Shown here: positions 11,067 to 14,306 of the stretch, piece after piece
Layout: the number at the start of each line of letters is the position of its first letter
How positions within the stretch are numbered: the stretch's first letter is position 1
Origin: Magnetococcales bacterium
Lineage (GTDB): Bacteria; Pseudomonadota; Magnetococcia; Magnetococcales; JADFWU01
DNA length: 14,306 nucleotides
Direction of reading: 5' to 3'
NCBI GenBank assembly: GCA_015234045.1
Contig: JADFWU010000063.1
Coordinates: forward strand, 1 to 14,306
Position numbers and translations under genes: made by a program
The notes under the pieces: model-generated
Told to the model about the DNA's origin: nothing
Database searches by the model: none
What the model saw: the letters and a program-made list of their open reading frames with translations, nothing else

Positions 11067-11142
11067 GACCCGTTCGTCTAGGGGTCTAGGACATCGGCCT
11101 TTCACGCCGACAACACGGGTTCGATTCCCGTACGGGTCGCCA
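11067..11142 (+). tRNA. tRNA-Glu (anticodon UUC)
   Basis: The cloverleaf is complete: acceptor GACCCGT pairs with ACGGGTC, the anticodon arm TCGGC-CTTTCAC-GCCGA carries TTC, and the T arm ACGGG-TTCGATT-CCCGT is canonical. The discriminator is G and CCA is encoded. The D-arm (GTCTAGGGGTCTAGGAC) matches the bacterial tRNA-Glu pattern. Downstream DNA is mobile in character, so the tRNA 3' end is a likely integration site; no second copy of its 3' end was found in the window. Confidence 0.97.
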
Positions 11143-11317
11143 CTTTTTCTGTTTGCTCATTCCTGCTTTAGCTTCCCTATAAATCTGTTTTAATCTGAGT
11201 TTGATAACTCAAATTGGTTGTCATTAAAATTGCTCTTTACTTCCTGGAAAAGTGAAGATACAGTTTTTTCTATTGCCATTTTATGATGATAATATTTATC
11301 ATAAGTTTTTGCATGGT
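11143..11317. other. AT-rich interval between tRNA-Glu and recombinase remnant
   Basis: No gene is visible here. It contains a 6-bp hairpin TGAGTT-TGAT-AACTCA (11196-11211) with no T run, and a 17-base palindrome ATGATAA-TAT-TTATCAT (11286-11302) just before recognisable recombinase coding sequence. No frame in this stretch gives the N-terminal domain expected of the recombinase, so it was probably replaced or deleted. Confidence 0.5.
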
Positions 11318-11860
11318 TTCAGGGAAAGAGCCATGTTGTTAATGGCCCGTGGCATGCTGGCTAGATCAAGTGAAGTGGTAGCCGTCAATGTCGAGGATCT
11401 CCACTTTGATAAAGACGGTTCCGGCACAATCACCATACGCCGATCCAAGACAGACAAGACCGGACAAGGTGCCATAATGTGGATCTCACAACCCACCGTC
11501 CAGGCTGTAAAAGACTGGTTAAAGGTATCAGGAATCAAGAAAGGCCCCCTCTTCCAGTCGCTCACAAAGGGTGGCACATTGCGCGGTAACCGGCTCGCTA
11601 CCACCGACTTTTACCGCTAATAAGACGGCTAGCCGAATGTGCAAATATTGAGGGAATTTAAGGGTATAGCGCACGTGTAGGTATGGCTAACCGCGAATGG
11701 CGTGGAATTAAGCGCGATAATGCAAGCAGGCCGATGGAAAAGCCCAACCATGCCAGCACGCTATAGCGAACGCCTATCAGCCGGGAAAGGGGCTGTGGCG
11801 CAACTGTATCAGAAGCATGATAATAATACTGGATTGTTGGAAGAGGGTTTAAGTGATTAA
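11318..11860 (+). pseudogene. Tyrosine recombinase/integrase remnant, N-truncated and frameshifted
   Basis: The catalytic domain of a phage-type tyrosine recombinase can be followed through two frames. Frame A (to the stop at 11618-11620) holds RERAMLLMARGMLARSSEVVAV, with the first catalytic Arg in LARSSE, and the beta-sheet with the Lys of RRSKTDK. The next block lies one frame over from about 11617 (RRLAECANIEGI), is broken by TAA, and continues as YSARVGMA where the family has HSxR-VGMA. The original frame resumes near 11696 with AGRWKSPTMPARYSERL, which contains the nucleophile Tyr, and ends at 11858-11860. The N-terminal arm- and core-binding region is missing. An open stretch from 11252 exists, but its first residues are unlike an integrase. 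Position directly after tRNA-Glu fits a tRNA-directed integrase whose loss of function fixed the island. Confidence 0.85.
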
Positions 11861-11886: not shown

Positions 11887-13122
11887 ATGGCTGTTGATTT
11901 GACTAAAATACTCTTAAATGGTTCAATTCCTATTGGTGAACTAGAGTGCTTTCTAAGTACAAACTTTGGTGGCTCAAGCCAAATAGAAGAACGTATTGTC
12001 TTATACGGTAATTGTGTCCAAATCACATATAATAAGCATAATAAAGTATCGAAAATTGAATGGATAAATGAGGATAGTGCTGATGGAAAAGGTAAGCTGA
12101 TAGAAAAAGTAAAACATGATTTGCTTGCAGATTATGGTTATAATATTGCTCAAAGCTATATTACCTCACGAACCAGAATTATAGGACCGTGTCGAATTGA
12201 TGATGAATTTCAAATCATTCCTTTACCAAAGGGAGCGCCCCTGCCTCGGATGGAATGGGCAGATCATCCAGCAATACTTCAGTATAAATATAAGGTATCA
12301 CCAAATGATCTGATCAGCTCATACAGGCAAGAGGAAAGATTTAGTTATCTTATTAATTTTCTAAACATAATAATTGAAGGAGGGTTGAAGTACCCTTCGT
12401 GCTCCAGTCGTAATGTATGGGTTTGGCCAGCACTGGATGGGAATCAACTATCAGAAGCTGAAGCGGAATATAGGCAGGTTGGATTTGTAACACAAAAACA
12501 ATGGGAAGAGAAAGATAATCAAGGTTTTTCCATTTCTGAAGAATGGGAGTATGTTGATTATTATTCCAGAGAAAAAGGAATTGATATAATTTATTTTGCA
12601 TCATTAGCAAATACAATTGGCCCAAAATACTATTCATTTAAATTGTTGATTCCAGATGATAAAGAGGTTTTTCTTCGTGCGTTACATTGGTATAAGTGTT
12701 CTGAAGAGTCTTTCAATATTTCTCGATCACAATCATATGCAAATCTTGTATTTTCTATTGAAGCATTGTTGCCAAAAGATTGTCATAAAGAAAAGTGTCA
12801 TAAGTGTGGAAAGGATATTCATAAGTCAAGCATATCGGAGCGATTTAAAAGGGTGTTGATTAAATATTATTTTGGTGAAAACAATAACGATGAAGATGAA
12901 ATCAAAAAAAACATCAATAAATTTTTACGCATGCGATCAAAATACGTTCATGGAAGTGGCTTAATGGTAAGTGATGCAGAACCTATTGGTTTCAGGTTCT
13001 CAGCAACAATCAATGCTGATGACCATGAATACAGGAAATTGTATCAAATATGTAGGGCAGTGTTAACCAATTGGCTTGAACATCCTGAACGCCGGATGAG
13101 TCATTTGAATCAAACTGATTAG
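11887..13122 (+). CDS. HEPN-domain protein, ApeA-like C-terminus
   Basis: The 411-residue protein starts at ATG 11887, with AAAAGGA about 8 bases ahead. Residues 1 to about 250 are not recognised; they are mixed alpha/beta in character, with no membrane segment or signal. From about 265 the sequence looks like an ApeA-type HEPN domain: a helix with ANLVFSIEALL, a Cys/His cluster C299, C304, C307, H312 that could bind zinc, a basic helix, then LRMRSKYVHGSG with the R-x4-H motif R350-H355 that forms the RNase site in many HEPN toxins, and a closing helix before residue 405. HEPN proteins of this type cut RNA in phage-defence and toxin systems, and ApeA itself is a single-gene anti-phage protein. 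The gene is much richer in AT than the housekeeping genes upstream, which suggests transfer. It stands alone and is convergent with the toxin-antitoxin pair. HEPN assignment is fairly sure; a defence role is inferred. Confidence 0.72.
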   Translation: MAVDLTKILLNGSIPIGELECFLSTNFGGSSQIEERIVLYGNCVQITYNKHNKVSKIEWINEDSADGKGKLIEKVKHDLLADYGYNIAQSYITSRTRIIGPCRIDDEFQIIPLPKGAPLPRMEWADHPAILQYKYKVSPNDLISSYRQEERFSYLINFLNIIIEGGLKYPSCSSRNVWVWPALDGNQLSEAEAEYRQVGFVTQKQWEEKDNQGFSISEEWEYVDYYSREKGIDIIYFASLANTIGPKYYSFKLLIPDDKEVFLRALHWYKCSEESFNISRSQSYANLVFSIEALLPKDCHKEKCHKCGKDIHKSSISERFKRVLIKYYFGENNNDEDEIKKNINKFLRMRSKYVHGSGLMVSDAEPIGFRFSATINADDHEYRKLYQICRAVLTNWLEHPERRMSHLNQTD

Positions 13123-13205: not shown

Positions 13206-13499
13206 TTATGTTCCGTGAGGCTGAACAGATAGACTAAATCCCATGGCCTTAAACAGTTGGCAAAGGCTCTTTAATTTTGGATTCCCATTTTCAGACAGGC
13301 CACGATAGAGACTCTCTCGGTTAAGGTTGGCCTTTTTGGAGACCTGACCGATACCACCTTGAGCTTCTACTACATCCCGGATGGCCAAGAGGATGACTTC
13401 AGGATCCCCATCTTCAAAGGCACCGCTCAGATAGTCCGAAGCCTCTTCAGGGTCACGCAGACTCTCAAGCAAGCCTTCTTTGTATTCACGTGTCCCCAT
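13206..13499 (-). CDS. HigA-type antitoxin (HI1420-like, XRE fold)
   Basis: This 97-residue protein is the putative addiction-module antidote type, a DNA-binding antitoxin that neutralises the adjacent toxin and represses the pair. The helix-turn-helix lies at about 53-75 (GIGQVSKKANLNRESLYRGL) and is followed by FKAMGFSLSV, a family-typical C-terminal strand. The ATG at 13499 is preferred because GGAG lies 8 bases before it on the minus strand; an in-frame GTG at 13508 is a worse fit. It overlaps the end of the toxin gene by 14 bases, typical of coupled translation with the toxin first. Confidence 0.88.
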   Translation of the reverse strand: MGTREYKEGLLESLRDPEEASDYLSGAFEDGDPEVILLAIRDVVEAQGGIGQVSKKANLNRESLYRGLSENGNPKLKSLCQLFKAMGFSLSVQPHGT

Positions 13500-13821
13500 T
13501 CTGTTCACTCCTATAAGCTTCCCAATGTTGCCGAGCTATGGCTATGTCTTTACTCTGGGTGGACTTGTCACCACCACAGAGAAGAAGAACCAGAGTATTT
13601 CCTTCACGACCAAAGTAGACACGATAGCCGGGACCATATGGAAGTCGTAGTTCAAACACACCACCACCAAGGGATTTATGATCCCCAAGATTGCCAAGCC
13701 GAACCCGGTTCAAACGGGTTCGAATACGCCTCGTGGCTTGACGGTCACGAAGAGAAGACAGCCACTTTGAAAAAGGGACTTCCCCATCGTCCGTAACATA
13801 TTCAAGAACTCTGATCTCCAT
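13486..13821 (-). CDS. HigB-like toxin (RelE/ParE superfamily, Gp49-like)
   Basis: This 111-residue protein belongs to the phage-derived Gp49-like/HigB toxins that cut ribosome-bound mRNA. The family pattern PFSKWLSSLRDRQATRRI is near residues 16-33, and LRLPYGPGYRVYFGREG with LVLLLCGGDKSTQSKDI follows, including the basic Arg/Lys residues expected of the RNase surface. ATG 13821 is chosen; an in-frame start at 13869 would add an atypical 16-residue extension. There is no ribosome site before 13821, and a promoter places the transcript start close to the ATG, so the mRNA may be leaderless. The toxin-before-antitoxin order is as in higBA. Confidence 0.9.
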   Translation of the reverse strand: MEIRVLEYVTDDGEVPFSKWLSSLRDRQATRRIRTRLNRVRLGNLGDHKSLGGGVFELRLPYGPGYRVYFGREGNTLVLLLCGGDKSTQSKDIAIARQHWEAYRSEQNGDT

Positions 13822-13826
13822 ATCTG

Positions 13827-13856
13827 ATTGTAGCCTTAAAGCTACATGTATATCAA
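13827..13856 (-). promoter_or_regulatory. Promoter of the toxin-antitoxin pair with inverted-repeat operator
   Basis: On the minus strand TTGATA (13856-13851) and TACAAT (13832-13827) are 18 bases apart. A TGTAGC-N6-GCTACA inverted repeat (13829-13846) overlaps the -10 and spacer, as expected for an antitoxin operator. The predicted start is at about 13820-13821, coinciding with the toxin ATG. Confidence 0.55.
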
Positions 13857-13869
13857 TCCTGGAAATCAA

Positions 13870-14043
13870 GTTTCACTACAGAGGGTAGGGGATAACCATG
13901 TCAAATTTGGTCAGTTGGGTAAGATGGATTGGATAGGTTCTGAAGGTGACTGTAACGAACTGCAAGCTCATGAAGTGGGATACCATCCTATGTAGGGTGG
14001 TATAGTCATTCCAATCTAAAATCTAACAGTGTATAATGTGCTC
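13870..14043. other. Gene-free interval before IS630 transposase, including likely IS end
   Basis: No gene is seen. A hairpin of two 10-base arms, ATACCATCCT (13980-13989) and AGGGTGGTAT (13994-14003), pairs fully with one wobble and a 4-base loop. TATAGTCATTCCAA begins at 14001 and resembles the TA-flanked termini of IS630-type elements; the exact end is not established. TTCCAA (14009-14014) with TATAAT (14032-14037) at 17-base spacing is the likely transposase promoter. Confidence 0.5.
14009..14037 (+). promoter_or_regulatory. Likely IS630 transposase promoter
   Basis: TTCCAA and a consensus TATAAT are separated by 17 bases. The transcript would start about 14044, at the ATG itself, and no ribosome site is seen; a leaderless message is possible. 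Confidence 0.5.
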
Positions 14044-14306
14044 ATGAGCTATGATATTGATTTGAGAAAACGTGCTGTTGAATATGTTAATTCGGGTGGC
14101 AAGAAAGCTGAAGCTGCCCGAATATTTGGTATCAGTCGTGGAACTATCTACGAATGGTTAAAACGATCAGATCTGACGCCAAAATCACGTGGTCTTAGTG
14201 ATCGCAAGCTGAAAAAGGCCGAACTGGCGGCACATGTGGAGGCTTACCCAGATGCTTTTTTGCGGGAACGAGCAGAGCATTTTGGGGTTCGCACCAGTAC
14301 AATCTG
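14044..14306 (+). mobile_element. IS630-family transposase, 5' part (cut by window end)
   Basis: The 87 visible residues begin MSYDIDLRKRAVEYV and contain a winged helix-turn-helix at about 20-43 (KAEAARIFGISRGTIYEWLK), the standard N-terminal DNA-binding domain of IS630-family transposases. A second basic, helical segment follows (DRKLKKAELAAHVEAYPDAFLRERAEHFGV). The DDE catalytic domain is beyond the window, and in several members of this family it is reached by a programmed frameshift. Start is ATG 14044; no stop is seen before the end. It marks another mobile element in the post-tRNA region. Confidence 0.85.

Follow-up and report, generated by a model that had tools for sequence, protein, structure and literature searches.

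A candidate single-gene HEPN ribonuclease, of a family without a name, in a mobile unit at tRNA-Glu

The gene at 11887-13122 on the forward strand of the window (the whole stretch of 14,306 nucleotides that was analysed) is best read, from its sequence and a predicted structure, as encoding a single-gene HEPN ribonuclease of a family that has no name. The HEPN fold of the 411-residue protein is very probable and ribonuclease activity is likely, and we assign a probability of about 0.6 both to a role in phage defence and to the specific reading in which the protein would be an anti-phage effector that is inducible and probably works by abortive infection. The fuller proposal is more tentative, with slightly less than even odds: an undescribed single-gene anti-phage system in which the HEPN ribonuclease would be combined with a CxxC brace and an alpha/beta sensor of its own, spread over Nitrospirota, the phylum of the window and an enterobacterial plasmid, and carried here as exchangeable cargo in a tRNA-Glu array. 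Phage defence has repeatedly drawn on HEPN ribonucleases, and any N-terminal partner newly found with such a domain is a candidate for a new infection sensor.

The gene and the mobile unit at tRNA-Glu

The gene is intact, with an ATG start at 11887 and an RBS-like AAAGGA in the upstream sequence (AAAGGATTAATTGAATG). The probability that an open frame of 411 codons would arise by chance at this base composition is about 10^-15, and the protein is conserved in another phylum. The initial annotation, which described an AT-rich HEPN gene at 11887-13122, had the coordinates exactly right; the GC content is 35% (as against 45-51% in the other window genes measured) and falls to 26% at third codon positions (as against 36-54%), and inspection of the protein sequence places both R350 and H355 (RSKYVH) and the SIEALL segment where that annotation had put them. 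It was equally accurate in naming as neighbours a dead integrase, a toxin-antitoxin pair and an insertion sequence, all of which are recognised by profile matches, with the integrase frames indeed broken:

11067-11142, forward strand: tRNA-Glu (TTC), the integration target
11095-11825, forward strand: 731-bp unit made up of the tRNA 3' half and the remains of an integrase; contig C106 has a copy with 98.4% identity
11096-11150, forward strand: att-like core of 55 bp, the 3' half of tRNA-Glu plus 8 bp
11252-11620, forward strand: middle part of a broken tyrosine integrase (PF00589, E 1.8e-5)
11887-13122, forward strand: HEPN-family gene, intact, 411 aa
13206-13508, reverse strand: antitoxin of the dnstrm_HI1420 type (PF21716, E 1.5e-15)
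13486-13869, reverse strand: Gp49/HigB-type toxin that pairs with this antitoxin (PF05973, E 2.1e-4, slightly short of the cut-off)
13877-14001, forward strand: stretch with 74% identity to L059 9553-9429, where the unit probably ends on the right
14001-14306, forward strand: IS630 element cut by the contig end (transposase start, E 1.4e-24)

The C-terminal part of the integrase lies beyond stops and frame changes, up to about 11830. The 731-bp unit recurs, with other cargo behind it, at L059 13624-12894 (G000:C106:97893-98623), and the similarity stops about 60 bp before the start codon of the HEPN gene. The 55-bp core is also found at three sites on C106, a contig of the same genome, with left flanks that differ from that in the window; two of the three sites have the same left flank. 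Furthermore, the stretch that resembles the probable right end (L059 9553-9429) precedes an att copy on that contig. The 28 bp at the left end of IS630 (14001-14028) are present at six other places of the genome, and no further copy of the tRNA 3' end was found downstream within the window. The simplest reading of these contig pieces is a row of units that would be stacked at tRNA-Glu and differ in exchangeable cargo, the window unit apparently carrying the HEPN gene and the toxin-antitoxin pair, with IS630 in its right end. Such a mobile unit suggests how genes of this kind swap at one tRNA site.

Several observations on the surrounding contigs are recorded here in their own right. Contigs C88 and C82 begin in the integrase remnant. 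The alternative cargo on C106 consists of a toxin-antitoxin-like pair followed by an 812-aa open reading frame (L059 10334-12772), in which a DUF4238 N-terminus (NHYVPQWYQRGF) and a SEC-C motif can be read by eye and which is a possible second defence gene. The tRNA-Arg (CCG) that ARAGORN predicts at L059 13577-13662 is composed of the tRNA-Glu 3' half and foreign 5' sequence and is probably an att junction, no real tRNA gene. The first gene of the contig (window 2-2050) looks by eye like the alpha subunit of adenylylsulfate reductase, suggestive of a sulfur-metabolising host.

A sparse family and its surroundings

Taken singly, the protein is nearly unrecognisable, the best Pfam match being HEPN_Apea, below its cut-off; PADLOC, NCBIfam and the PDB sequences contain no match to it, and its N-terminal half has no Pfam domain. 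Scans of the genome and viral collections with the whole protein or its C-terminal part, as well as tblastn of plasmids and phages with the window protein, returned zero matches, and a degenerate search pattern was made because these direct scans failed. The underlying alignment (A1) has the real protein in row 1 and made-up variants in all further rows, with nothing but the expected HEPN motif retained; these variants are a pattern-making device and count as no evidence. The pattern applied to the genome collection, [LY][KR][MLI]R[SN][KA][ILY]VHG, led to one locus that was confirmed by tblastn with the real protein (E 1e-30), namely L018 of Nitrospirales bacterium NPIRA01, which is 29% identical and covers residues 3-403 in three frames. 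Profiles built from two (A2) and then seven (A3) real proteins brought up members of full or almost full length in eight genomes of the same phylum, along with a shorter protein in genome G507 that is related in its C-terminal half and one marginal match; the phylum of these relatives was taken as Nitrospirota, after L018. A tblastn search with one relative added a protein encoded on a plasmid of Pantoea soli (E 5e-7), which scores E 5e-25 with a profile built without it. The window protein itself scores E 5.8e-147 against the family profile, a model in which it is included.

With members in about 9 of the 395 genomes of the L018 phylum, in a single genome of the 398 from the window's phylum (the window's own) and on the Pantoea plasmid, this is a sparse family that is represented in two or more phyla and on a plasmid of an enterobacterium. 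Neither 50,697 phage records nor seven scans of IMG/VR yielded a member, and the E. coli genomes contain no DNA-level relative of the Pantoea gene. The family is missing from the copies of Pfam, NCBIfam and PADLOC that were searched; specialist databases beyond these may hold it. Some copies are damaged (L018 is split over three frames and L050 over two, and L033 lacks the N-terminal start), although these defects may be sequencing errors in draft genomes; L031 and L034 are among the intact relatives. The dN/dS values of about 0.12 for L031/L033 and 0.29 for L035/L050 indicate purifying selection on the protein in these relatives. In the same phylum, two HEPN-looking proteins outside the family, L052 (a 297-aa frame with RSDIVHG; E 2.9e-4 with the family profile) and L030 (a 457-aa frame with RSKLIHG; E 0.07), may bridge it to the classical ApeA-like HEPN proteins.

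The surroundings of the relatives, tallied as raw counts over 11 loci, are diverse. The Pantoea gene resides on a mobilizable plasmid in a defence island, in the company of VapBC, an Mrr-type nuclease, an Abi_2 protein and an AAA_13 ATPase; the vicinity also includes an integrase and a recombinase. L018 is flanked by BrnTA, Gp49/HTH_37 and ParE-type toxin genes, and L051 by a YoeB/ParE-type toxin and an antitoxin that shares its Pfam family with the window antitoxin; L035 adjoins a serine recombinase that abuts a tRNA-Glu, L036 overlaps a DUF559 nuclease gene, and L034 neighbours a DUF6036 nucleotidyltransferase. By contrast, four of the 11 loci (L031, L032, L033 and L050) lie among housekeeping genes such as ppx/gppA, ribD and crtC, with no obvious defence genes. 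The earlier suggestion of a defence effector is backed indirectly by the Pantoea island and by the relatives beside toxin-antitoxin genes or an integrase at a tRNA, but not by these four loci. Upstream of the Pantoea relative and within the same island, at a distance of 98 bp and on the same strand, there is a hypothetical 317-aa gene (L053 13967-14920), a possible partner.

Predicted fold and active site

AlphaFold, given a family alignment of 12 rows with the window protein as row 1, produced a model with a mean pLDDT of 72.5 and a pTM of 0.71, whereas a single-sequence prediction (pLDDT 32) was discarded. The parts of the protein that matter for what follows are these:

11887-12390, forward strand: N-terminal alpha/beta region, residues 1-168 (AlphaFold; block pLDDT mostly 63-88)
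12397-12600, forward strand: low-confidence linker, residues 171-238 (pLDDT below 50 over most of it)
12643-13107, forward strand: HEPN domain, residues 253-407 (AlphaFold and structure alignment)
12760-12762, forward strand: E292, an acidic residue invariant in 9 of 9 sequences, where the helix preceding the knuckle ends
12796-12807, forward strand: CxxC knuckle, C304-x2-C307, predicted as part of a beta-hairpin that separates helices 280-292 and 316-328
12934-12951, forward strand: R350-S-x3-H355, the predicted RNase site, where helix 336-354 ends; present in all nine sequences

The predicted C-terminal domain is a bundle of helices (256-275, 280-292, 316-328, 336-354 and 372-398) whose best structural match is 4nqf (Z 9.5, rmsd 3.5 over 118), followed among the HEPN chains by Csm6 (5fsh, Z 8.0), sacsin (3o10, Z 7.8), HepT (7ae9, 7ae6 and 6m6u, Z 6.3-6.7) and LsoA (5hy3, Z 4.9). 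HEPN chains occupy ranks 1, 2, 3, 7, 8, 9 and 13 of the 996 aligned with VIA-align. Because any Z below about 13 can be reached by chance for helical bundles, the support for the HEPN fold comes from the combination of these chains topping the list with the sequence motif. Foldseek by itself returned nothing below E 0.001, and the search of viral structures nothing usable. The HEPN C-terminus proposed in the initial annotation, for which structure prediction had been named as the check, is upheld by the predicted bundle, by HEPN chains as its best matches and by the invariant catalytic arginine and histidine.

Among nine aligned sequences, most of which share about 20-30% identity with the window protein, the residues E292, F320, R350, S351, H355 and D363 are identical throughout, as would be expected of a HEPN active site. 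The R-x4-6-H motif is present with a polar residue after the arginine, and R350-S-x3-H355 is retained in L033 and L050 too; E292 is invariant, and the Ex3[KR] form that the second conserved acidic residue of HEPN proteins typically takes is absent. The Cys/His cluster that had been read between the SIEALL helix and the R-x4-H motif fared less well: C299, C304, C307 and H312 are all in place, but only C304 and C307 are conserved among the relatives (in all eight rows that have the segment), C299 and H312 vary, and the idea of the four residues as one conserved zinc site was dropped. The CxxC is a probable zinc site, albeit a dispensable one, and is likely to be structural because L035 and L050 have lost the knuckle by deletion and L033 has lost half of it (CPTF).

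In the N-terminal region, the model runs through a helix, four strands, a helix, further strands and a last helix, the helices being predicted at 16-27, 65-80 and 141-162. The invariant columns of the A3 alignment are G100, Q109-x2-P112-x-P114 and H127-P128, together with R147 in helix 141-162. The Pantoea protein does without the first 83 residues and keeps the second part (GxxRxxDxFQIxPxP).

Possible mechanism, alternatives and known HEPN systems

How might such a protein act? The R-x4-6-H HEPN domains are metal-independent endoribonucleases that are common in abortive infection (PMC3710099), and the known HEPN RNases work as homodimers (PMC13405049). In the mechanism that we propose, a HEPN dimer would join two R-x4-H sites into one metal-independent RNase centre, with the CxxC hairpin propping up the helical bundle and the N-terminal alpha/beta region holding the dimer inactive. 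An infection-related nucleic acid, nucleotide or protein would then bind the N-terminal region and free the dimer, and the freed RNase would cut RNA and stop the infected cell. That the N-terminus could be an off-switch responding to infection is suggested by the combination of a solitary gene, a location in mobile DNA and an N-terminal domain of the protein's own. The active site of the family is strictly kept, yet the family moves between phyla, and with a few intact members known from unrelated hosts, phage challenge is feasible as a direct test.

The same gene could be construed as an addiction toxin that keeps the mobile unit in the cell, its antitoxin being unlinked, or lost, or else the product of the antitoxin gene next to it. 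The HEPN toxins of toxin-antitoxin pairs, HepT and RnlA, share the R-x4-H motif (PMC7641770, PMC3710099), and the gene adjoins a complete toxin-antitoxin pair, as L018 and L051 adjoin several. We nevertheless consider this explanation unlikely: no small co-directional partner gene adjoins the HEPN gene in the window, the window antitoxin is already paired with its own toxin, the neighbours of the relatives vary, and the adenylylation motif of HepT, RX4HXY, is absent (H355-G356-S357). A HEPN protein that binds or processes RNA in a housekeeping or regulatory capacity, outside defence, would have precedents in MtlR and Las1, which are not toxins (PMC3710099), and would suit the four relatives among housekeeping genes. 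Such a role is distinctly unlikely, however, given the patchy occurrence in both phyla, the low GC content of a gene on a tRNA island, the plasmid copy in a defence island, and catalytic residues that are invariant while the neighbours differ from locus to locus. The reading as an inducible anti-phage ribonuclease is preferred to both.

Could the protein, then, be a diverged representative of a defence system that is already described? RnlA and LsoA are the RNase LS toxins directed against T4, and the HEPN RNase of RnlA has a conserved glutamate upstream of R-x4-H. A diverged RNase of this type, with alpha/beta domains followed by HEPN and restrained by an RnlB-like antitoxin, would have a domain order identical to that of the window protein; RnlA takes rank 2-3 in Foldseek when the entire length is compared (E 0.12-0.26), and residues 1-82 match residues 100-184 of RnlA, which has two TBP-like repeats before its HEPN domain, weakly (Z 4.3), next to the match of the HEPN part with LsoA mentioned above. 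All these scores are within noise, with TM-scores of 0.13-0.16, and the N-terminal resemblance amounts to a hint. Moreover, no Pfam RnlA model matches up to E 10, no RnlB-like neighbour was recognised, and the part concerned is absent from the Pantoea member, so we regard a diverged RnlA or LsoA as quite improbable.

ApeA (PF18739) is a single-gene anti-phage HEPN protein, and the window protein resembles it in having a C-terminal HEPN domain with R-x4-H that follows a large N-terminal region of its own. HEPN_Apea is also the best Pfam match, with E 0.23 for the entire protein and 0.027-0.035 when the C-terminal part is taken by itself, but its 12.3-15.3 bits fall short of the cut-off of 24.4, and no PADLOC model matches any of the 12 family rows. 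In a profile comparison with eight HEPN_Apea-matching proteins, 46 columns were aligned at a probability of 20%, a relation confined to the motif region, and the CxxC hairpin is an insert of the window family's own. Searches of the 398 genomes of the window's phylum with HEPN_Apea yielded other HEPN proteins, none of them related beyond the motif, and in the window's genome PF18739 matches only the gene at 11887-13122 (E 0.08). The NTD1 of ApeA comprises about 300 residues and is mostly beta (PMC3710099), as opposed to the alpha/beta region with long helices predicted here, which is why we do not consider the window protein an ApeA. The ApeA-like character claimed in the initial annotation is, in effect, retained at the level of the HEPN superfamily only, and a diverged ApeA is very improbable.

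Three of the nine sub-threshold Pfam matches of the family are HEPN families, HEPN_Apea being joined by DUF3644 (E 0.043) and pEK499_p136 (both in the range of E 0.04-0.05). The known members of EC042_2821/DUF3644 and pEK499_p136 occur either as fusions with winged-helix or nuclease domains or in restriction-modification operons, and EC042_2821 has been described with fused Zn-ribbon domains. HepT, likewise a HEPN RNase with R-x4-H, has about 140 residues as against 411, and the tyrosine of its RX4HXY motif corresponds to S357 in the window protein; identity with HepT/MntA was rejected on account of this motif and since there is no MNT neighbour in the window. The family is accordingly distinct from ApeA by the cut-off and NTD1, from RnlA by sequence and the lack of a partner, and from HepT as well.
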